45,568 nt of DNA from an uncultured Ruminococcus sp. (GTDB taxonomy: Bacteria > Bacillota > Clostridia > Oscillospirales > Ruminococcaceae), in assembly GCA_902787365.1 (NCBI GenBank), contig CADAGC010000002.1, positions 1 through 45,568 of the forward strand, read 5' to 3'. The notes beneath the pieces were generated by a model. That model did no database searches and was not told the DNA's origin. It saw only the letters and a list, made by a program, of their open reading frames with translations. This document shows positions 22,985 through 32,552 of the stretch, piece by piece; position 1 is the stretch's first letter; every line of letters starts with the position of its first letter. The position numbers were made by a program, and so were the translations under genes.

Positions 22985-23125
22985 GGCAAATATCGCCTCG
23001 CCTACGCTCGGCTCTTGCCGCCTGGCGGCGGTGGGACTCTGTCCCACACCCTGCTGGGGCTCTGCCCCCGTCCCTGCAAGCCCTTTTTGAGGAAAAGGGC
23101 CCCTCCCAAAACCTTTTTATGATTA
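22985..23125. repeat. GC-rich dispersed repeat with serial hairpins
   Basis: Serial stems GTGGGAC/GTCCCAC, GGGGC-TCT-GCCCC and GCCCTTTTT/AAAAGGGC. This kind of intergenic unit is familiar from Ruminococcaceae and Lachnospiraceae. It has no coding signal and lies downstream of the dpaB 3' part, where it may also serve as terminator. Confidence 0.55.
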
Positions 23126-23141
23126 TCTATTCCCGACACTT

Positions 23142-23399
23142 TTACAACAACACCGGCTGCAACTGTCTCCCCTGCAAGGCGGCGGTTATGGTATCTTCTA
23201 TCCTATCAAAATCTGCCACTACAGAGTTAGGCTTAGCGCTATAATTATCCTGCCGATAGGGCACGAAATAGTAGTTTCTCATACTTTGCAGCAGGCCGAT
23301 ATTCTTAGCGGCGTTTGCAAGGGCGTCGTTAGTGGATATGGCTATCACGACGGGCAGGCCGTTGCGCAGGTGGCTCTTGACGGCCATTGTGACGGGGGT
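23142..23399 (-). pseudogene. dpaB: Dipicolinate synthase subunit B, C-terminal part (split gene, residues 107-191)
   Basis: This is the missing end of dpaB/spoVFB. The frame reads TPVTMAVKSHLRNG, PVVIAISTNDAL, YYFVPYRQDN, KPNSVVADFDRIEDTI and ends AALQGRQLQPVLL, a close match to the C-terminal half of the family. On the element side the frame runs back to a GTG at 23477 through a hydrophobic stretch that is element DNA, not dpaB. There is no credible start codon of its own. Joined at the core GT (23398-23399) to the N-terminal part at 31317-31636 it gives an in-frame 191-aa protein. It is best seen as an interrupted gene that may be restored by excision, rather than as dead. Confidence 0.9.
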
Positions 23400-23426
23400 G
23401 CTGTTTACTATGATTATAATTGTAAA
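23398..23426. promoter_or_regulatory. Element end, recombination half-site (left)
   Basis: Core GT at 23398-23399, 19 nt, then the arm ATTGTAAA (23419-23426). The arm is the exact reverse complement of the arm at the other end, at the same 19-nt distance from the core. The host dpaB sequence lies below 23398. Confidence 0.8.
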
Positions 23427-23454
23427 AATCCACCCGAGGATAATTAATGACGGC

Positions 23455-25296
23455 TTAAATGCCGTCTCTGTATTCACCTGTTACTACAAGCAAGCCTTCT
23501 TCATTTCGTCTGACGATATCAGCCTTTATAAGCTGACGCAGTCTGCTTGCAACGTGCTTCTTGGTAACATTCTCACCAAGCAGCTCTGCATATTCGTTGT
23601 ATGTTAGATCACCTTTGCCACTTTTTATTATCTCATAAAGACGCTTTTTTTCGTCGCCTGTTCGTGCTTTTTTCTCGGCAAAGCCACTGTAAGGAACAGT
23701 CACGCTGAATAGATTTCCGAGGTCTATATCTTCATTTTGCAGGTGCTTCAGACCTATCAGCTTGTATTTATCATAAACTATCGTTACTGTAGCATCGTTG
23801 TTTACTATGATCTTTTCTATTTTACCGAGAACAGCAGAGCCTTTAGCCTGTGCTATGATATCTGTATTTTCGAGAGCTTCCTTGATCCTTTCAAGCCTTT
23901 TCTCATTGTCGGTAAGGTTTGACAGGTCAGCTTCAAGGACAGCTATTTCAACGGATAGCCTTTTAATGTCAACAGAAAGCTTGTCATTTTTCAGTTTGAA
24001 GTCGCTTTCACTTATCAAACCATCAACCAGTTTATCAAGGAAAAACTCTTTTCTCTCAATTTGACGGGTATATTCTGCCTTGAGTTTATCGAGCTTTGCG
24101 GTGCTGCTGCTCTCCTTGATAGCCTTTCTGATGATCTTTAAACAACGCTCTATGATGCCATTGTTGCTGTCAAATAATACCGCAAACTGCTTTTCAGATG
24201 CTTCGCCTATAAGCTCCATGAGCTTATCCTCTCTTACGCACTCGCAGTTGCAGCCATATCCGAGCCGTTCAGCCTTTTCACGCCCCTCACGCTGTGCCTT
24301 GCCACATTTCCACATAGCGGCTTTGTCACCGTTATGGAATGTGCTGATAAGCCTATGGAACGGAGTGCCGCAGCAGCCGCAGACTATCTTTCCAGACAGA
24401 GGATATTTGCCACTGTAAGCGCTTCGGCAATCGGGCTTAAATCGGCTCTTTATGATCGTTTGTATCTCCGTAAAGTCCTGCTTGCTTATTATAGGCGGCA
24501 GGGCATTTTCGTAATAGATCCAGTTTTCGGGAGGCTGGAGCTCATTTCGGCGCAGCTCGAAATTATGCACGGTCTTTCGCATTACGAAACAGCCGTATAG
24601 CTTGGGAGATAAACACATCTGCCGCCATACACTTGCCTGTATCGGTTTGCCAAGAGTATTTCTTGCGCCCATTTCGTAAAGCCTTTGAGAGATAGAATAA
24701 AAACCGTGTCCTTCTTTCAGCATCTGAACGGCATATCTTATATAGCCTGCCTCCTGTTCGTTTACAACGTATTCGTTCTTTCCGACCTTATCCCAGCCAA
24801 ACATCTTTCGGCTGATATTTACGCCGCTTAGATTGTCCTGCCTGTTCTTATGGCTGTTTTTGAGTTTTTCCGAAAGCTGCTTGCTGAAATAGCTGTCAAA
24901 GCTGTTCTTGATATTATACATAAACTGCTGAGAGAGTTCAAAGAACGAGCCCTCCATGTAGATATACAGCCTTTTTTTGTTTTCAAACATTTCCTGCTGA
25001 AAATCATTCCAGTCCTTGGTGCTTCTTGTCAGTCTGTCAAGGCTCTTAATGATAATAACATCGAATTTGTTCTTCTTCATATCGGCTATCATATCAAGAT
25101 AGCGGCTGCGGTTTTCAGTGCTTCGTCCGCTTTCAAGCTCTATGTACTGCTCTATCAGAGTCCATCCGTATGCTCTGCATATGTCAGCTGATTGACTTAT
25201 CTGCACTTCAAGTGCGCTCTCTTGTTCATCGGTAGAACAGCGGTTGTATGTAACTGCTCTCAGATTCAGTCCCTTGTACTTTTCGTTGATCATCAT
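23455..25296 (-). CDS. Large serine recombinase (integrase/excisionase of the dpaB element)
   Basis: 613 aa. Resolvase-type catalytic domain with S21 in YNRCSTDEQ and the RLTRSTKDW region (about 1-150), recombinase DNA-binding domain (about 165-290), zinc ribbon (C306, C309 with C331 and C349/C351), long coiled coil (about 395-475), and an extra winged-helix-like tail (about 545-605, LTYNEYAELLGENVTKKHVASRLRQL). It would cut at the 2-bp core and join element ends by subunit rotation. The gene ends about 55 bp from the left core, the usual place for a serine integrase next to its att site. It is read in the same direction as dpaB. AAAGGA precedes ATGATG at 25296. Known relatives with this role are SpoIVCA of skin and SprA of SP-beta. 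Confidence 0.93.
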   Translation of the reverse strand: MMINEKYKGLNLRAVTYNRCSTDEQESALEVQISQSADICRAYGWTLIEQYIELESGRSTENRSRYLDMIADMKKNKFDVIIIKSLDRLTRSTKDWNDFQQEMFENKKRLYIYMEGSFFELSQQFMYNIKNSFDSYFSKQLSEKLKNSHKNRQDNLSGVNISRKMFGWDKVGKNEYVVNEQEAGYIRYAVQMLKEGHGFYSISQRLYEMGARNTLGKPIQASVWRQMCLSPKLYGCFVMRKTVHNFELRRNELQPPENWIYYENALPPIISKQDFTEIQTIIKSRFKPDCRSAYSGKYPLSGKIVCGCCGTPFHRLISTFHNGDKAAMWKCGKAQREGREKAERLGYGCNCECVREDKLMELIGEASEKQFAVLFDSNNGIIERCLKIIRKAIKESSSTAKLDKLKAEYTRQIERKEFFLDKLVDGLISESDFKLKNDKLSVDIKRLSVEIAVLEADLSNLTDNEKRLERIKEALENTDIIAQAKGSAVLGKIEKIIVNNDATVTIVYDKYKLIGLKHLQNEDIDLGNLFSVTVPYSGFAEKKARTGDEKKRLYEIIKSGKGDLTYNEYAELLGENVTKKHVASRLRQLIKADIVRRNEEGLLVVTGEYRDGI

Positions 25297-25299
25297 AGC

Positions 25300-25404
25300 T
25301 TATGATTCCTTTCTGTTTAATATTTCGAGTGCTTTCTGATATTCTTCCGTTGTTATAAGCTTCATCTCAAGCAACTGCCTGAAAATAAACAACTCAATAC
25401 CCAT
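25300..25404 (-). CDS. 34-aa SHOCT-like ORF upstream of the recombinase
   Basis: ATG at 25404, stop 3 nt before the recombinase start, so probably co-transcribed. The sequence (MGIELFIFRQLLEMKLITTEEYQKALEIL...) has the short two-helix pattern of SHOCT domains (RQLLExxLITxEEYxKA). Ribosome binding site weak (GTAAAG). A recombination directionality factor is one possible role, since such factors are small and often lie beside the integrase; this is a guess. Confidence 0.5.
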   Translation of the reverse strand: MGIELFIFRQLLEMKLITTEEYQKALEILNRKES

Positions 25405-26457
25405 AAAACTTTACAAGCATAGTTTGTGTCAGTTATTATAACGCTGAATGATCATGAACGGTTCACTCACACCTGTGAATTCTTTGTGAAAGATATTGCC
25501 GTCGCAGATTTGTTGTGTCAAATAATTTATTAAATATTTATATATATCTCTGCATGATCTCCGTAAATGCCCTCGCTGAAAACTATGCTGTATCTCCTTT
25601 CTTTTTTAATGCTATTGCTACAGAAAGGTAGATATGCATAGTACTATGGATTTACATAAGTACACAATTTTCTTCAGAGTAGTTAAACAGAAAATTAAAT
25701 CTATATGTAATCATCATAAAGTATGTCAGGATTTCAAATTATATGCGACACATTCTATCAAGTATATCTGACCGTACACACAAGTTCATAAAATAATCTT
25801 TAAGTATAGCGATCTGCTTGCCTAAGTATATTCGTACGCTCTCAGAGTTGGATATTTGAAATAATAAGCTTTAATAAACACTTGAAGTATAAAATTGCTA
25901 TGCTATGTTTGCTTAGAGTAACACATCAAAAAACCTCAAAACAAACCACACGTCATCTGTAAAAAGGCGTGTAAACGTTTTCCTACAGGTGGAGGTCTTT
26001 TTGAGGCTTTTTAACGCATATTCGTATATATAAACAAGTACAAACACACTTATAAGAGGTATGTTTTTCCTTATTAAGGCACTATTTTATCATTAAGTAA
26101 GAACCTCCTTCCCCAGCACTATTTTCGGGTAGTAGTATATATATAATATATAGGACTAAATAGAGGTAGCACTATGTAAAAATCAAGGCACTTAATGAAA
26201 TAGCCTAAGTTGAGTGATTTTTGCAAAAGATGTTCAAGACCTGCTAACTTGTCCGTCTAAGGTATATCATTGTTTGTCAAATGTAATTATATCGCTCTCA
26301 TGTTAACTACTTTTTTGAAAGGTAATACACACTTTTGGGTTATTATCGAACTTGATGCTAATGTCACAATACATATCTTTAAGGCAGCTTTGGATAATCA
26401 GAGTATATAGTCACCGGTAACATCATTCTCCACTGTCGGAAAATTGATTTTACTATG
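25405..26457. other. AT-rich non-coding stretch of the element
   Basis: About 1 kb without a supportable gene. It holds a TATAAT-like box on the minus strand (25439-25434), the structured segment at 25928-26012, an imperfect dyad CTATTTTATCATTAAG (26082-26097) / CTTAATGAAATAG (26191-26203), and, on the minus strand near 26100, a strong AAGGAGG followed by a three-codon ORF (ATG ATA AAA TAG). Confidence 0.6.
25928..26012. ncRNA. Predicted structured RNA or DNA fold in the element
   Basis: Outer stem AAAAA-CCTCAAAA (25928-25941) pairs with TTTTGAGG-c-TTTTT (25999-26012). Inside is a 14-bp-position hairpin (25957-25970 with 25975-25988) whose only break is a 2x2 A/C internal loop, closed by the GNRA-type tetraloop GTAA. 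Four further pairs (25953-25956 with 25989-25992) extend it. Could be an RNA, a double-sided terminator, or a hairpin bound by an element protein. Strand of transcription unknown. Confidence 0.5.
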
Positions 26458-26486
26458 TTGACAAATTTACAAAAATATAGTACAAT
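26458..26486 (+). promoter_or_regulatory. Promoter of the DNA methyltransferase
   Basis: TTGACA (26458-26463), 17-nt spacer, TACAAT (26481-26486), 30 nt before the start codon. Confidence 0.8.
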
Positions 26487-26516
26487 TGAAATATCACTAA
26501 TTGTCGGAGGGCTTTT

Positions 26517-27464
26517 ATGCTGTGTTATACCACAAAAAATGGAGACGCCTTTTGCGGCGACTCCACCAAACTTATACAAGAATTAGAAGATAACAGCATT
26601 GACCTGTGTATCACCAGTCCGCCCTTTGCGCTACTGCACCCAAAGGAATACGGAAATGAAACGCAGTATAATTATGTAAGCTGGCTATGTGACTTTGTTA
26701 AGCTTCTTTTACCCAAGCTGAAAGAGCGTGGCAGTCTTGTTCTTGACATAGGCTCGGCATACAACCCAAAAGAGCCTACATACAGCATTTACCAGTTTCG
26801 GCTTCTCGTCAAATTGGTAGATGATTTCGGCTTGAAGCTCTGTCAGCCGTTCTACTGGTACAACCCCTCCAAGCTGCCGACACCTACTACATACGTCAAC
26901 AGAATGAAAATACGAGCCAAGGACAGCATTGATACTGTTTGGTGGCTGTCAAAGTCTGCCCGACCTCACGCCGACTGCACACAGGTTCTAAAGCCGTATT
27001 CAAAGAAATTCAAGAAACAGCTCAAACACCCCGAAAAACGCCGTAAGGAGGATATACACGTTCCCTCGGGGCATATCATACACGCTGACACATGGAAGAA
27101 TAACGGCGGCTCTCTGCCGTCAAATCTCCTGCGTATCGCCAACACCAACAGCCGAGGGCAATATATCCTTGCCTGCAAAAGAGCCAAGGTCAACCCTCAC
27201 CCCTGCCGTATGCCCGAGGAGCTTGTGAGCTTTTTCGTCAAATACCTGACCTATGAGGGTGACACCGTGCTTGACATCTTCGCAGGGAGCAACACCGTAG
27301 GCGAGGTATGCGAGGGTATGAACCGCCGTTGGAAAGCATTTGAACTCAGCCGTGAATACGTAGCGGCAAGCGCCTTTCGGTTCATCAGCGATATTGATAA
27401 CGCCCGTGCCTGTTATGAGGAGATAATGGCAAGCGAGGGGTTTGTGGATATATCGGTATATTAA
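26517..27464 (+). CDS. Site-specific DNA methyltransferase, PvuII-type (probable cytosine-N4)
   Basis: 315 aa, complete. Catalytic motif IV is TSPPFALL (33-40) and comes before the SAM-binding motif I, LDIFAGSNTVGE (252-263), so it is a beta-class enzyme. The SPPF form, the YWYNPSKLP segment and the VWWLSK strand are typical of the M.PvuII-like N4-cytosine group. The middle (about 150-215) would be the target-recognition part; the site is unknown. No restriction endonuclease is adjacent, so this is an orphan enzyme within the element. GGAGGG lies 5 nt before the ATG. It has its own near-consensus promoter, so it is probably made constitutively. Confidence 0.9.
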   Translation: MLCYTTKNGDAFCGDSTKLIQELEDNSIDLCITSPPFALLHPKEYGNETQYNYVSWLCDFVKLLLPKLKERGSLVLDIGSAYNPKEPTYSIYQFRLLVKLVDDFGLKLCQPFYWYNPSKLPTPTTYVNRMKIRAKDSIDTVWWLSKSARPHADCTQVLKPYSKKFKKQLKHPEKRRKEDIHVPSGHIIHADTWKNNGGSLPSNLLRIANTNSRGQYILACKRAKVNPHPCRMPEELVSFFVKYLTYEGDTVLDIFAGSNTVGEVCEGMNRRWKAFELSREYVAASAFRFISDIDNARACYEEIMASEGFVDISVY

Positions 27465-27465
27465 C

Positions 27466-27500
27466 AAAAACGACCTGTTGCACACACAACAGGTCGTAAA
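27466..27500. terminator. Bidirectional terminator between methyltransferase and LRR genes
   Basis: Perfect 11-bp stem ACGACCTGTTG/CAACAGGTCGT, loop CACACA, with an A run on the left that gives T's on the minus strand. It serves two convergent genes. Confidence 0.85.
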
Positions 27501-27503
27501 TAA

Positions 27504-29135
27504 TTATTCCATACGTTCTCTTGATACTATTTCACCGAATCTGGCAGAACGTGCGTCCTCTTCACTCAACGGTTCGGGATACTGACCGATAGTGCCGTAA
27601 CCACTTGCATCATCACACCATTGAACGTAGAAATAGCAATATATCCTATCCCAATGATCGAGTTTGAGCTTGACGTAACCACTGCTGATAGCTTCACTTA
27701 ATTTCTGTTCAATGATATCGGAACTGTTACTGTCAGGGCAATATGTTCCCTCGTAATATCCGTGCTGAAATTCATCCTGCGGTCTGACATCGTCTGTATA
27801 TAGTCTTTCGGTAAAATATTCGTCAAGTATTTCATAAGCAAGCCTTGCGTTTTCGTTAGCTTCATCTAAGCTTACGCTGCCGCCATGATTACTGTATTCA
27901 TCATTGTTATCGTTATCGTAATCGTCATTGTCATCATCATCATCGCTGTCTTTATGGCTGTGGTGAGATGATGATGTACTGCCGCCGAATACATACCCTG
28001 AGTCAAGTTTAAACACAATAAACAAAACCACTATTGCAATAAGTCCGCATATTATGACGGTTGTTATAGAGCCTACAGCGATTTTAAATCCACGCCCTTT
28101 ATGCTTTTTATCCGAGCCGTTATCCGTTTCGGCAGGCTGTTTTGAAGGAATATACGGCTCTTGCGGCGTACCGCAGCTTGTACAGAATTTAGCATCAATA
28201 CGTATTTCGTTACCGCAGCTGGCACATTTCCTTGTTGTCGGCAACTCTGTCGGCTGTTGTTCCTGTGATTTTGCAAGCTTTGATTTTTTGCGGTGTCTTA
28301 TTACAAGAATTATAAGCAGTATTGATAATGCTCCTGTGCCAATCATGATTAAACGAATAATATGCTTAAACATAACAGGCGTATTAAATAACGCATTTTT
28401 GAACAATAGACTTGTTTTATGTTCTATCTCAACATCCTTAAGACTGGCACAATTTCTGAATGCGCCGTTTTCTATTTTGACAGCTTTTTTACGGTCGTTG
28501 AACTTTACATATTCAAGGTCACTACAATGGGCAAAAGCACTATTTCCTATCTCTTTTAGCGATTTAGGAAACTCTACTCCCGTAATGCTTTCGCATCCAT
28601 AAAATGCTAAGTCGCCAAATGTTTCAAAACCGTCCGGAAATTCTATATCTCCTTCAAGTTCTTCACAACGATAGAATGCTCCTTCCCCGATTTCCTCAAG
28701 ATTATCGCCAAAATGAACATATTCCAGATTTTCACATTGACAAAATGCATGATCGCCGATATAGACTAAGCTATCGGGAAACTTTATTTTTTCAAGTTTA
28801 GAACATTTAAAGAATGCCATTTCGTCTATTGTTCTTAATTCAGTCGGCAGATAGACCTCTTTAATGTTTTTCCTCTCATAAAAAGCATGTTCACCTATAT
28901 CGGTGACGATTCCCCCGTCGAGATAATTAGGTATGGTAACATATTCATCGTCGCCTCTGTAAGAAGTTATCGTAACAGTTCCGTCATTATTGAACTCATA
29001 TTTGAACGGCGATTCCTCGGTATCGCTATAATCATACGCCGAAGCCTTTATATTCTCTTGACCTGATATGAATCCTGTGAATAATGTCACAGCCATCAAA
29101 GAGGCTAACAACATTGATATTCTCTTGCCCTTCAT
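27504..29135 (-). CDS. BspA-type leucine-rich-repeat surface protein with internal zinc ribbon
   Basis: 543 aa. Signal peptide (1-32); five to six LRR_5 repeats (about 75-235, units like LxxIGxxAFxxCxxLExVxFP) outside the cell; membrane helix 1 (258-280); cytosolic loop with a zinc ribbon (C304, C307, C318, C321); membrane helix 2 (351-376); Ser/His and Asp/Asn-rich linker (about 386-415); C-terminal outer domain. BspA-type LRRs usually bind host or matrix proteins. The combination with a cytosolic zinc ribbon is unusual. AGGAGG precedes the ATG. Transcribed from a full-consensus promoter overlapped by a large dyad, divergent from the Xre gene. Function in the element unknown. Confidence 0.88.
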   Translation of the reverse strand: MKGKRISMLLASLMAVTLFTGFISGQENIKASAYDYSDTEESPFKYEFNNDGTVTITSYRGDDEYVTIPNYLDGGIVTDIGEHAFYERKNIKEVYLPTELRTIDEMAFFKCSKLEKIKFPDSLVYIGDHAFCQCENLEYVHFGDNLEEIGEGAFYRCEELEGDIEFPDGFETFGDLAFYGCESITGVEFPKSLKEIGNSAFAHCSDLEYVKFNDRKKAVKIENGAFRNCASLKDVEIEHKTSLLFKNALFNTPVMFKHIIRLIMIGTGALSILLIILVIRHRKKSKLAKSQEQQPTELPTTRKCASCGNEIRIDAKFCTSCGTPQEPYIPSKQPAETDNGSDKKHKGRGFKIAVGSITTVIICGLIAIVVLFIVFKLDSGYVFGGSTSSSHHSHKDSDDDDDNDDYDNDNNDEYSNHGGSVSLDEANENARLAYEILDEYFTERLYTDDVRPQDEFQHGYYEGTYCPDSNSSDIIEQKLSEAISSGYVKLKLDHWDRIYCYFYVQWCDDASGYGTIGQYPEPLSEEDARSARFGEIVSRERME

Positions 29136-29186
29136 TTACTTGACCTCCTGTTTTAGTCTGATAATACGCTATATTTAGCATTTATC

Positions 29187-29215
29187 ATTATATCACACCG
29201 TACGGTTGTTGTCAA
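29187..29215 (-). promoter_or_regulatory. Full-consensus promoter of the LRR gene
   Basis: On the minus strand TTGACA (29215-29210), 17-nt spacer, TATAAT (29192-29187). Confidence 0.9.
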
Positions 29216-29227
29216 TAACAACCGTAC
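29200..29227. promoter_or_regulatory. Operator-like 11-bp inverted repeat between Xre and LRR genes
   Basis: GTACGGTTGTT and AACAACCGTAC, 6-nt centre, perfect. It covers the -35 and half the spacer of the LRR promoter. Binding by the divergent Xre protein would shut this promoter; inferred. Confidence 0.75.
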
Positions 29228-29281
29228 TGCTTTTTACATAACCCCCGTGAGGTGTTATCATTAACTAAAGGCGGTGATATA

Positions 29282-29620
29282 ATGATAGCCAATCTTAAAA
29301 AGCTAAGGAATAAAAAAGGCATCAGCCAACAGATGTTAGCCGATGCCATTGGTACAAGTCAGCAATCTATAAACAAATATGAGAACCATAAAATCGAACC
29401 CGATATTGAAATGCTTATCAAGATCGCAGACTATTTTGAGACCTCTGTCGATTATCTTACAGGACATACAGATATTGACCGTGTTATTGAAAACGTCAGG
29501 CGGTATGACCTTGGTGCGGCAGAGTCTGAGCTTATTGATAGCTACCGCAAGTTGTCACCGAAGCAAAGAGACAGCATTGAAAGCGTTATAGGCAATTATT
29601 TGGAGTTGCTTTCGCCTTGA
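29282..29620 (+). CDS. Xre-family repressor
   Basis: 112 aa; start ATG at 29282 behind AAAGGCGGTG. HTH at about 5-60 (LKKLRNKKGISQQMLADAIGTSQQSINKYENHKIEPDIEML) followed by the FETSVDYLTG motif that ends many SinR/phage-type HTH domains, and a helical C-terminal part for dimerisation. It is divergent from the LRR gene with a perfect dyad between them, so it is the likely regulator of that promoter and perhaps its own. Its 3' end overlaps the convergent small ORF by 25 nt. Confidence 0.88.
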   Translation: MIANLKKLRNKKGISQQMLADAIGTSQQSINKYENHKIEPDIEMLIKIADYFETSVDYLTGHTDIDRVIENVRRYDLGAAESELIDSYRKLSPKQRDSIESVIGNYLELLSP

Positions 29621-29955
29621 TTCTTCATGATCCCTGCACAAAGCTCCAAATAATTCTCATACAGCTTATCATACCGCTTCTCCATATTTACAAGCTCACG
29701 CTTGATGATGTTTGCTGCACGAACCGCTGTGATAGCACTTGACTTCAAGTCAAAGGTGTCCTCATACATAGCACCTATATCATCTTCACTTGAAACTTCA
29801 ATGTCTACGGAAATCTTGCAGTTGTTGCTGTTTAATATATTCTCCTCGCCATTTCCGAAGAATTGCAGTTCTGTCACATCCCTTGCGCAGTCATAGTTTA
29901 TGAGCAGGTCAACGTTTTGGTCTCCGTAGTCTTTTCCGTTAATTACAAATTTCAT
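29596..29955 (-). CDS. Element hypothetical protein
   Basis: 119 aa, not recognised. AAGGAGG precedes the ATG, so it is surely translated. The first half is beta-rich and acidic, the second half (about 70-112) a helix with KRELVNMEKRYDKLYENYLELC, suggestive of a coil. It is 3 nt from the stop of the upstream gene, so the two form an operon, probably with the resolvase-type gene upstream. Confidence 0.7.
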   Translation of the reverse strand: MKFVINGKDYGDQNVDLLINYDCARDVTELQFFGNGEENILNSNNCKISVDIEVSSEDDIGAMYEDTFDLKSSAITAVRAANIIKRELVNMEKRYDKLYENYLELCAGIMKNQGESNSK

Positions 29956-29958
29956 AAA

Positions 29959-30312
29959 TTAGTCCTCCTTATTGTCAATAGGTTGTTTTTTTAGATACCG
30001 CTTGTACCTGTATTGCAGGGTAGAGAGCGGTATATTTGTTTTCCTGTGCAAAGCGTTCCAGCTCAGGCATTTCTTTAGCTTGTAGATTTCCTCATCGGTA
30101 TAGATATGGCTATTCAGTTCACTCAACTTGTCGAGCTTTTTGATTTCGTCTTTGACATCATCAAAACACTTTACCATGCCGTCTAACCGCTTTTCAACGC
30201 CCATGCTGTTATTTGAAATATAATCTGCAACGGTCTGACACACTTTCAGAGTATGTCTTTGATACTTGAATATCATATCGAGCTTTTTATGTATATCATT
30301 TTCCTCGTTCAT
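29959..30312 (-). CDS. Element hypothetical protein with C-terminal HTH-like segment
   Basis: About 117 aa. AAGGAG lies upstream; starts GTG (30324), TTG (30318) and ATG (30312) are possible, ATG chosen. The N-terminal half is a coiled coil (EEKRLDGMVKCFDDVKDEIKKLDKL-like). The C-terminal end LSWNALHRKTNIPLSTLQYRYKRYL looks like a helix-turn-helix, so DNA binding is plausible. An excision or accessory factor for either recombinase would fit, without proof. Confidence 0.65.
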   Translation of the reverse strand: MNEENDIHKKLDMIFKYQRHTLKVCQTVADYISNNSMGVEKRLDGMVKCFDDVKDEIKKLDKLSELNSHIYTDEEIYKLKKCLSWNALHRKTNIPLSTLQYRYKRYLKKQPIDNKED

Positions 30313-30497
30313 TTTCAAAATCACTCCTTCCCGAACTCGATAATCCCGAAACTAATAAAACTTAATCGAAATCACCCCCCTAAAACCTTGAAATTTGCTC
30401 TCTGAGCCACTTTTGCCACAAAAACATCAAACTACCCTTATCAAAACAAAACCCCTTAAAACATCAATTCTCTTCGTTCTGGTGCATTTAGCAAAAA

Positions 30498-31091
30498 TCA
30501 ATTATTATTTTCCTGCTTTTTCTTCATATCATAAATCATTTCTCTTTTCAGAATATTATAGACGGTAGCTCTTGTGACTCCGAGGCGTTTTGCTGCATCG
30601 GTAACTGTAAGTGTTTTGTACTTTATGCCTTGCAGTGTTTTGAGCAACAGCTCTTCATCATATGTGTTCGGCTGTCTGCCCTTATACTTGCCTTGCTGCT
30701 TGGCAATCTCGATACCCTCACGCTGTCTTTCAAGTAGGTTTTGTCTTTCAAACTCATTTATCGCAGCTATAAGATTGAGCATAAGCTTGCCTGTGGGTGT
30801 ACTTGTATCGAAGTTTTCTTTAATGCTCACAAGCTTGACATTTTTGTTTGCAAGGTATTCAATGATTTTCAATAAATCAACCACCGAGCGAGAGAGACGG
30901 CTCCAGTCCATAACATAAACTGTATCGCCGTCACGAACGAAAGAGAGCATTTCTTTCAGCTTGGCACGCTCTGTATTCTTGCCCGAGATTTTTTCTGTAA
31001 ACCATTTGTCAATACTGTAATTCTGTAAGGCTTGAATTTGTCGCTGTTCGTTCTGTTCTACTGTTGATACTCTCACATACGCAATATTCAT
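30498..31091 (-). CDS. Resolvase/invertase-type small serine recombinase
   Basis: 197 aa from the ATG at 31091 (GGAG 9 nt upstream). Catalytic domain with S9 (AYVRVSTVEQNEQRQ), the DWSRLSRS motif, NLIAAINEFERQNLLERQREGI E-helix, and a C-terminal HTH (LTVTDAAKRLGVTRATVYNILKR). Full length and intact. Typical of Tn3-type resolvases and DNA invertases. It lies near the right end of the element, about 200 bp from the core. It could resolve multimers, invert a segment, or help excision; no invertible repeats were seen. Confidence 0.92.
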   Translation of the reverse strand: MNIAYVRVSTVEQNEQRQIQALQNYSIDKWFTEKISGKNTERAKLKEMLSFVRDGDTVYVMDWSRLSRSVVDLLKIIEYLANKNVKLVSIKENFDTSTPTGKLMLNLIAAINEFERQNLLERQREGIEIAKQQGKYKGRQPNTYDEELLLKTLQGIKYKTLTVTDAAKRLGVTRATVYNILKREMIYDMKKKQENNN

Positions 31092-31224
31092 AATAATCAT
31101 CTCCATGTTTAATTTGGCTATACTCAAAATGAGCATTCTTGATTTGTATAATATAAGTCGTGAATTTTACATTTTGACAGCCTGTTTTTTATATATCAAA
31201 TATAACTCCATATCCTTTATATGC

Positions 31225-31259
31225 AAAAACAGCAGCCGCCCACAAAAGGACGGCTGCTG
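31225..31259 (-). terminator. Terminator behind the truncated dpaB reading frame
   Basis: Minus strand: 12-position stem CAGCAGCCGTCC/GGGCGGCTGCTG (one mismatch-type pair), short loop, then five T. It lies inside the element and would stop dpaA-dpaB transcripts before the recombinase genes. Confidence 0.88.
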
Positions 31260-31276
31260 ATCTATATGTTTATATT

Positions 31277-31636
31277 CTAGCGGTGAAGCTTTACAATCAT
31301 TTTAGCATTAACCGGCGTATCGGTTATACCCAAAGCAAGCTTAGCGGCGGTATTGGCAGTACACGGGGCGACCACGAGAACATCGAACATTTTCTTTGGG
31401 CCTATCGGCTCGGCGGCGGATATGGTCTTAATGACATCGTGGCCTGTGAGGGCTTTAAGGCGGCTGATATGCTCTTCTGCCTTACCGAAGCGGGTGTCGA
31501 TAGCTGCGGCGTTAAATGACATCACGGGTATTACATCATACCCTGCCTGCGTGAGAGACTGCACGGCGGCTATCGCCTTAGAGAAGGTACAAAACGAGCC
31601 TGTGAGGGCGAAGCCGACCCTGACTCTATCGCTCAT
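31277..31636 (-). pseudogene. dpaB: Dipicolinate synthase subunit B, N-terminal part (split gene, residues 1-106 plus element-coded tail)
   Basis: The first 106 residues match DpaB/SpoVFB: VGFALTGSFCT (flavoprotein-like phosphate/nucleotide loop), VIPVMSFNA, DTRFGKAEEHI, EPIGPKKMFDVLVVAPCTANTAAKLALGITDTP. After codon 107 (ACG, whose first two bases are the core AC) the frame runs into element DNA (residues NAKMIVKLHR) and stops at 31277, giving 119 aa where about 190 is normal. The ATG overlaps the dpaA stop (ATGA), so the genes are coupled. With subunit A the full protein makes dipicolinate from dihydrodipicolinate for the spore core. As it stands the product lacks its C-terminal third and is probably inactive. 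Confidence 0.92.
31290..31318. promoter_or_regulatory. Element end, recombination half-site (right)
   Basis: Arm TTTACAAT (31290-31297), 19 nt, core GT (31317-31318), then dpaB. Joined to the left half-site it gives a 56-bp site with matching arms and 8 of 12 symmetric positions next to the core. Confidence 0.8.
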
Positions 31637-32433
31637 GGTGTCACCCCCATTCTTCTTACAATAATATCCCTGACCGCCTGTGCGATATACTCGCCGCCCG
31701 TTTCGGGGGCGTAGAGGGCGGGCAGAGCGGGGGCTTTTATAAGTCGCCTGCCGAGGTTAAGGGCGGCGCCCTCGTCAATGCCGTAGGGGTATGAGGCTAT
31801 CTCAATAAAAAGGGCAGTATCCTTTGAAGCGGCAAGCTCTGCCCTACCGAAAACAGGCGCAGGAACGGTATTCACGATGATATCGGAAAGGGCGGCAACG
31901 GCTATGACGTTATCAAGGCCGACTGCCAGCAGGCCGAGGGCTTCGGCTTCGGCACGGGCGGCGGGGCTTCTTGCGGCTATGCAGACCTTAGCGCCGAGCA
32001 AAGCGAAAAGCCTTGCAATCTGACGACCGCAGGCGCCGAAGCCTGTTACGAGCACACGGCTGCCGCTGATGACACGGGGCGTATTCTCCATGGCGAGCAT
32101 AAGCGTGCCTTCGGCGGTGGGCAGGGCGTTTTTGAGCTTAAGAGAGGGGCTGTCGTAGTAGTCCTCGACCTCATAGCCCATTGACAGAAAGCGCTCTTTG
32201 AGCTCTTTCGGTATTCTGCCGCCGAGGACGAGGGCGGAGGGCTTTAAGTGCTTTGAAATGCCGTCAAAGCTGCCGTTTTTAGTAAGCATCGGCAGAAGCA
32301 GGATATCAGCCGCCGCAGTACCCGACAGCGGAAACTGAGTTTCTACAGTATCAAAATAGCCACGCAGCGCACGCACGGCGTGAGACTGCCTTGCGTCGCC
32401 TTTTATGGCCAGGATCAATGGTTTGTTAGTCAT
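31633..32433 (-). CDS. dpaA: Dipicolinate synthase subunit A
   Basis: 266 aa, near the usual length for SpoVFA/DpaA. It acts with DpaB in the mother cell of sporulating cells to make dipicolinic acid, the calcium chelator of the spore core. Visible are the N-terminal catalytic-like half with VLGGRIP and a Rossmann NAD(P)-binding fold starting at VLVTGFGACGRQIARLF (128-144; G131, G133, G136), then IIVNTVPAPVF and IEIASYPYGID, all family features. AAAGGA precedes the ATG. The stop overlaps dpaB. A sigma-K-like promoter lies just upstream. Gene intact, which argues that the pathway is still under selection. Confidence 0.93.
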   Translation of the reverse strand: MTNKPLILAIKGDARQSHAVRALRGYFDTVETQFPLSGTAAADILLLPMLTKNGSFDGISKHLKPSALVLGGRIPKELKERFLSMGYEVEDYYDSPSLKLKNALPTAEGTLMLAMENTPRVISGSRVLVTGFGACGRQIARLFALLGAKVCIAARSPAARAEAEALGLLAVGLDNVIAVAALSDIIVNTVPAPVFGRAELAASKDTALFIEIASYPYGIDEGAALNLGRRLIKAPALPALYAPETGGEYIAQAVRDIIVRRMGVTP

Positions 32434-32457: not shown

Positions 32458-32485
32458 TATACTATGCTCTATGCGTTAATTTGGT
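32458..32485 (-). promoter_or_regulatory. Putative sigma-K promoter of dpaAB
   Basis: On the minus strand AC (32485-32484), 17-nt spacer, CATAGTATA (32466-32458), matching the sigma-K pattern AC-(16-17)-CATAnnnTA. In B. subtilis the spoVF operon is sigma-K dependent. The leader would be only about 18 nt, holding the ribosome binding site. Confidence 0.6.
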
Positions 32486-32552
32486 TAATTGCGGGGGCAA
32501 TACCTTTTTTACGCTTTTTGCGGGATGCGGCAGTATGATTATTATAAATAGC

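Follow-up and report, generated by a model that had tools for sequence, protein, structure and literature searches.

In an uncultured Ruminococcus sp., the gene dpaB, which encodes dipicolinate synthase B and acts in the sporulating mother cell, is interrupted at Asp106-Thr107 by an element of 7,919 bp, and the two halves of the gene rejoin in frame. The gene lies in the window, by which the whole stretch of 45,568 nucleotides that was analysed is meant (CADAGC010000002.1, contig C2 of the draft assembly GCA_902787365.1, which has 2.92 Mb in 137 contigs and is 93.75% complete). To judge from its ends, it is close to certain that the element was precisely integrated by a large serine recombinase, its excision during development is likely, and it is on the whole probable that it represents a non-prophage intervening element of dpaB, of the type of gin from Bacillus, that is excised in the mother cell to rebuild the gene.

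The split gene and the element

Both pieces of dpaB, which an earlier note on this DNA had placed on the same strand, are matched by the family model NF006161, with model positions 5-112 matching 31304-31627 (E 5.9e-40) and positions 106-194 matching 23139-23405 (E 8.4e-35), each on the minus strand. Joining 31636-31317 to 23397-23142 reproduces the 576 nt and 191 aa that had been counted before, with one terminal stop and none internal, and the joined protein aligns end to end with the DpaB of five same-genus genomes, in which the gene is intact, at 69-77% identity across 190-191 residues. Such an alignment and a search for uninterrupted relatives were among the checks that the earlier note had proposed; no relative with this insertion in common was found, and a second dpaB, which it had named as a finding that would speak against a split gene, was looked for with NF006161 and not found in the own genome, where the sole other match is a weak flavoprotein paralogue (32.6 bits). 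Also dpaA is uninterrupted, as had been claimed. A crude sigma-E/K promoter pattern was scanned over eight stretches (16 scans, 100 shuffles each), and the best of these scans is a sigma-K-like site 5' of dpaA, the full score of which was reached in 0 of 100 shuffles, the next-lowest counts being 8 (sigma-K pattern before a 121-aa open reading frame (ORF) of the element), 18 and 27 per 100. No tRNA was found within the window.

Features of the split gene, its surroundings and the crossover:
32458..32486, minus strand: sigma-K-like promoter 5' of dpaA (AACC, 16 bp, CATAGTATA), 10/10 score with the pattern
31633..32433, minus strand: dpaA, uninterrupted, 266 aa, immediately upstream of dpaB (NCBIfam DpsA 1.1e-46, spore_dpaA 2.3e-39, each under its curated cut-off)
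31277..31636, minus strand: ORF of the N-terminal piece, real according to the NF006161 match
31317..31636, minus strand: N-half of dpaB, codons 1-106 and the AC of codon 107 (NF006161)
31317..31318, minus strand: crossover dinucleotide AC, N-side junction (register against intact same-genus dpaB, and dyad centre)
31289..31316, minus strand: N-side arm of the attachment-site dyad (18 of 28 positions agree with the other arm)
23398..31316, no strand: intervening element, 7,919 bp (G+C 0.40 against 0.50 in the 10-kb flanks)
23400..23427, minus strand: C-side arm of the attachment-site dyad (dyad comparison)
23398..23399, minus strand: crossover dinucleotide AC, C-side junction (dyad centre)
23142..23399, minus strand: ORF of the C-terminal piece, real according to the NF006161 match
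23142..23397, minus strand: C-half of dpaB, remainder of codon 107 through stop (NF006161)

At the crossover, intact same-genus dpaB genes read GAT-AC or GAC-AC, and in the window the host sequence is retained up to GAT-AC at the left junction and from AC-CCCC at the right, so that only AC is common to both, in register. When the element ends are rejoined around this AC, they form a dyad in which 18 of 28 positions match, a score that is the maximum among the 8,942 positions in 23000-32000, where it occurs once (mean 7.2, s.d. 2.4), and that none of 20,000 shuffles of the arms reached. For large serine recombinases, a long dyad on either side of a 2-bp overlap is the usual arrangement, and dyads of this kind with a central overlap look like the attachment sites of such enzymes. 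The predicted circle after excision has 7,919 bp; its junction, searched as an exact 26-nt string, gave 0 matches in the viral_contigs collection, which is weak evidence.

Genes and signals within the element:
31225..31259, minus strand: terminator-like hairpin followed by a T run, just within the element (read by eye, unscored)
30498..31136, minus strand: small serine recombinase of the resolvase/invertase type, 212 aa (Pfam Resolvase 4.5e-43)
29959..30324, minus strand: 121-aa ORF, no assigned function (no Pfam, NCBIfam or phage match; one weak PHROG of unknown function)
29596..29955, minus strand: 119-aa ORF, no assigned function (no match in Pfam, NCBIfam, PHROGs or PADLOC)
29252..29620, plus strand: helix-turn-helix (HTH) regulator, Cro/C1-type (Pfam HTH_3 5.5e-19)
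27504..29135, minus strand: BspA-type leucine-rich-repeat and zinc-ribbon protein, 543 aa (Pfam LRR_5 7.1e-43)
26517..27464, plus strand: DNA methyltransferase, type II-like (Pfam N6_N4_Mtase 8.5e-31; PADLOC MTase_II 373.5 bits)
25300..25404, minus strand: 34-aa ORF, ending 3 bp before the start of the large recombinase (SHOCT-like by eye)
23455..25296, minus strand: large serine recombinase, 613 aa, intact (Pfam Resolvase, Recombinase and Zn_ribbon_recom, each above cut-off)

The large recombinase, which the earlier note had placed about 55 bp from the junction, has its end at 23455, which leaves 57 bp to the crossover, and aligns with the catalytic domain of the TP901-1 integrase, with YNRCST opposite YTRVST at the catalytic serine motif. 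The 34-aa ORF next to it is a candidate accessory or directionality factor, for which nothing was found in phages beyond cyanophage matches at E 0.6. The hairpin at 31225-31259 would stop a truncated dpaAB transcript. A DNA search with the whole element matched the small recombinase gene alone, in 2 phage and 5 plasmid records, the latter, clostridial and other, with 71-73% identity over 144-200 bp to recombinase genes. A restriction enzyme was not recognised among the scanned ORFs of the element. PHROGs assigned seven element ORFs to integrase, invertase, methyltransferase, regulator and unknown families, and none of these seven looks like a phage structural protein; the HTH regulator-type hit to a family of terminase small subunits was weak (4e-4) and the only one of its kind. 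As the cargo is not phage-like, the element was kept out of the prophage-like subgroup of skin and vfbin.

Interrupted dpaB genes in other genomes

In a search with NF006161, 295 of 396 genomes from the family and 327 of 394 from the order gave a match above cut-off, the two sets overlapping, and 16 genomes, mostly with mid-range scores, were rechecked, while G468, G502, G518 and G649 were among the mid-range ones left out; all counts of recombinase-type interruptions are thus lower bounds. Such an interruption is found in at least six genomes (the window's, G022, G062, G207, G424 and G442) and at at least four sites, codon 107, codons 12-14, about codon 131 and about codon 150. The site at codon 107 is occupied in the window's genome, G062 and G442, and also in G207 and G022, of which only C-ends were found. 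In G062, the halves lie 2.7 kb apart on a single contig and are separated at the window's codon. In G442, the halves at codon 107 lie on two contigs, and the element ends form a dyad of 22/28; with further insertions at codons 12-14 and about 131, this dpaB is in three or more pieces, serine recombinases standing where it is broken (L110:3217-3504, L108:5441-5548, L109:1396-1599). For its first codons no place could be found; the corresponding element end, on contig C91, adjoins another gene. In G424, a single contig carries, in this order and directly after dpaA, codons 1-14, a first element (about 7.8 kb), codons 14-150, a second element (about 8.8 kb) and the remainder of the gene (L148:15117-15160, L107:3476-3886, L107:12714-12842), and a 13-bp direct repeat flanks the first element. 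The pieces found in G062, G424 and G442 rejoin in frame, despite two or more insertions.

For six dpaB elements both ends are known, and their joints all restore the frame of dpaB in silico. The dyads score 18 in the window, 17 in G062, 24 and 16 in G424, and 22 and 20 in G442, whereas 30 mismatched pairs of ends did not exceed 13, a ceiling that rose to 15 if each pair was allowed its best among 31 offsets. This offset control was used because in the five elements outside the window the dyad centre had been picked as the best among the shared dinucleotides, and the score of 16 in G424 is only narrowly above it. In G207, of which only the C-half was found, the element sequence diverges right up to the AC; in G022, likewise with a C-half only, the match runs eight bases, so that its crossover is merely compatible with AC.

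Large or large-type serine recombinases stand at the dpaB junctions of G062, G207, G424 and G442. Of those at codon 107, the ones from G062 and G207 are 42% identical over 323 aa and that of G442 is about 23% identical to both, and in partial alignments the window's enzyme has 20-30% identity with the three. Three distantly related recombinases, the window's included, used the same AC. When 543 windows of 30 nt in the dpaB DNA of 30 genomes were ranked by conservation, codon 107 came 30th, codon 12 45th, codon 131 192nd and codon 150 184th; as the last two are not notably conserved, conservation could explain a convergence at codons 107 and 12 only.

Several candidates were dropped from the count. 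In G416, dpaB is broken near codon 76, with inverted ends and a 5-bp repeat that by eye resemble an insertion sequence (IS; L104:3835-3973, L103:7640-7722). The dpaB pieces of G094, G096, G444, G604 and G616 run up to a contig end, exactly or to within a few bases, or begin at one, those of G657 are adjacent and overlap as after a frameshift, the matches in G343 and G436 are nearly full-length, and that in G156 is full-length; G514, with a partial match, was left out as well. The insertion at codons 12-14 that G424 and G442 have in common was tried as a test of selection after insertion, but the synonymous divergence (dS) is 0.62 for the recombinase and 1.49 for dpaB, so that a shared origin of the two insertions could not be demonstrated and the test did not hold. 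Another observation concerns the smallest case, that of G062 (L101:1094-4389), where an element of 2.7 kb carries an apparently shortened recombinase of 359 aa and, by eye, an ORF like an AI-2E transporter.

Origin and fate of the element

In the papers found, excisable inserts are described from six sporulation genes (sigK, spsM, spoVFB, spoVR, gerE and yabG). The inserts skin in sigK of B. subtilis and C. difficile, SPbeta in spsM (PMC4191935, PMC10747680) and yin in yabG of C. botulinum (PMC5025042) are removed in sporulating cells and share with the dpaB element a recombinase-mediated insertion in a sporulation gene that is rebuilt by excision, but they have a prophage or prophage-like content, lie in other genes, and their excision has been shown experimentally. 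The closest in target is vfbin, which interrupts spoVFB (dpaB) of Bacillus weihenstephanensis KBAB4 and has a serine recombinase that is expressed in sporulation (PMC4191935, PMC10747680, PMC5595907); it has been described with phage-related genes and from another bacterial class, and its insertion site within the gene may be another one. In gerE of Bacillus cereus ATCC10987 lies gin, which has 28.6 kb and three serine recombinases, one of which is needed, and for which excision, the recombinase GirC and the directionality factor GirX have been demonstrated experimentally (PMC5595907). Like the dpaB element, it is without phage genes, encodes at least two serine recombinases along with DNA modification gene(s), has a G+C content below that of the host, and hits a mother-cell gene, and as gin has no phage genes, the wider kind does not need them. 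The dpaB element differs from gin in size, number of recombinases and target, and is known here from its sequence, but as its build, with several serine recombinases, a modification gene and no phage genes, comes nearest to gin, it is called gin-type. Common to sporulation gene-intervening elements and present here are the split mother-cell gene, the serine recombinase at the junction and attachment sites that rebuild the gene in silico. Of the skin/vfbin-type element that the earlier note had proposed, several points hold: a large serine recombinase inserted it precisely, the gene can be rebuilt, the cargo has nothing to do with phage structure, and the element is like skin and vfbin. Its excision and the timing of this in the mother cell are predictions.

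As the junctions show, a non-prophage mobile element that encodes a large serine recombinase entered dpaB at a conserved position; while integrated, it breaks the gene and, by the terminator-like hairpin, would also end its transcript. By analogy with skin, vfbin and gin, the recombinase and a putative directionality factor would in sporulation excise the 7.9-kb circle in the mother cell, so that dpaB would be rejoined in frame behind the sigma-K-type promoter and dipicolinate could be made, while the chromosome of the spore would retain the element. In favour of this are the full-length in-frame join with no second dpaB found in the own genome, the dyad centred on AC, the restored frame at all six joints, the complete recombinase, the low ratios of nonsynonymous to synonymous divergence in both halves, the sporulation-linked genes of the genome, the sigma-K-like promoter before dpaA, and sigK in halves in G001, G005 and G006.

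Several points weigh against this course of events. A known directionality factor was not recognised in the element, and before the 613-aa recombinase the crude pattern gave no sigma-E/K promoter above the shuffles (best scores equalled in 27 and 91 of 100). Of sigK, the own genome has the N-half only (model positions 4-115; L113, L121:9516-9965, contig C26), and the sigK model did not find the C-half in the own assembly. Its single gene for a small acid-soluble spore protein (SASP; L122:7930-8110, contig C24) ends in GGQMVNMMCPQRQP, where those of G003 and G005 continue differently. As the C-half of sigK was not found and the SASP end is altered, the host may not sporulate; these gaps may be assembly gaps or rebuildable splits, and a host that lost sporulation would fit too. 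The recombinase in G062, with 359 aa, falls well below the 555 aa of its nearest match, and some such elements may therefore be stuck in place. Against G006, dN/dS, the ratio of nonsynonymous to synonymous divergence, is 0.192/1.604 for one half of dpaB and 0.123/0.849 for the other (about 0.12 and 0.14), both low, but dS was finite for both halves in only two of the five comparisons (G006 and G002), and the low values may reflect selection that predates the insertion.

The sigK and SASP gaps and the missing sporulation promoter would also suit an ordinary genomic island with a serine recombinase that uses dpaB as a landing site and leaves it inactive, in a host that sporulates poorly or not at all, with rare excision tied to transfer and free of developmental control. 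The gene is dispensable for growth, and in G416 it is broken by what by eye is an IS-like insertion. An island of this kind is nevertheless rather unlikely, as both halves of dpaB are intact and in frame, the pieces in three further genomes rejoin in frame even after repeated insertion, and sigK halves are retained in three relatives. It is also improbable that the element is moved by the 212-aa recombinase instead of the 613-aa one. The small enzyme lies only about 180 bp from the N-side junction, and one that is 39% identical to it stands in the G022 element, about 2 kb off, as the sole recombinase seen on that contig; but this contig is cut before the N-side end, so that a large recombinase may be missing there, the small enzyme resembles plasmid recombinases, the long dyad and the junctions of four other genomes speak for large ones, and gin needs just one of its three (PMC5595907). 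An assembly error or a simple pseudogene with dpaB pieces that are neighbours by chance might come to mind with a draft of 137 contigs, yet it is hardly conceivable with both halves on a single 45.6-kb contig, an exact in-frame join with a dyad centred on it, and parallel cases on single contigs in G062 and G424.

Beyond the gin-type element of the window, it can be proposed, though tentatively and with more doubt than confidence, that dpaB is a preferred docking gene in the order, on one dinucleotide of which distant serine recombinases converged while other elements use further codons; with dpaB, sigK and perhaps a SASP gene in two, three or more pieces on the inherited chromosome of some species, a spore would need several precise and mutually independent excisions in the mother cell, a programmed rearrangement of multiple elements that would belong to normal sporulation. 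In the titles and openings of abstracts that were listed (subscription papers lying outside this scope), neither an interrupted dpaB beyond Bacillus nor a report of one gene hit by several elements was found. To the known inserts, the window adds one from another order that is compact, non-phage and exactly defined in its crossover, and together with the other genomes it shows that several distantly related recombinases have used one gene and one dinucleotide of it. The wider pattern of the same codon, several recombinase lineages and several sporulation genes merits follow-up: it can now be tested whether repeated excision is a routine requirement for bacteria that complete a spore, a sporulation gene that a draft genome seems to lack or to carry in broken form may in fact be split and open to rebuilding, and new serine-integrase tools might be developed from the attachment sites.

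Other sporulation genes and related recombinases

In the own genome, a sigE-like and a sigG-like gene are intact neighbours, and a SASP gene and dpaA are present. Across the genus, with seven genomes, four have yielded sigK in halves only (the own, G001, G005 and G006), it is whole in G002 and G003, and in G004 (58% complete) there was no match at 1e-12. The halves lie 59.4 kb apart on the same contig and strand in G006, with a predicted joint RCVEN/EILM, and on separate contigs in G001 and G005 (L132-L137, L151, L152). In the own genome (G000), the altered SASP end lies at the 3' end of a further large serine recombinase; likewise beside a recombinase, G006 (L164) has the same altered end, and the ending as such also occurs in G002 (L168). 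A pattern search in the 78 kb beside the SASP gene of G006, which a piece of about 10 residues would escape, gave no second SASP piece. SASP is perhaps, as these ends suggest, a third interrupted sporulation gene.

Scans of the genome_contigs and viral_contigs collections gave no relative of the 613-aa recombinase, and a scan of genome_contigs for dpaA gave one irrelevant planctomycete locus and nothing else. Recombinases akin to that of the window (24-34% identity) were read by eye at 31 loci, which do not amount to an enrichment test; of these loci, two lie in sigK at QEDLxSIGT (L054 and L056) and one at a SASP gene (L045); at the others no sporulation gene was recognised by eye, and no library search was made. 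The large serine recombinases of L054 (G343) and L056 (G238) stand inside sigK away from the RC[VI]EN break, and the sigK piece of L056 also ends at KCIEN, as if broken twice. Rejoined, the element ends gave by BLAST only short matches to the nearest phage-labelled relative (best E 0.029). The best match to the 613-aa recombinase in the phage collection (36% identity over 88%) is in record MT835561.1 (L154:5821-8403), which is labelled Bacteriophage but looks chromosomal, with mraY-, murD-, ftsQ-, ftsZ- and sigE-like genes named by eye, and there the recombinase ends directly before a C-terminal piece of what, likewise by eye, is a SpoVD/FtsI-type protein.

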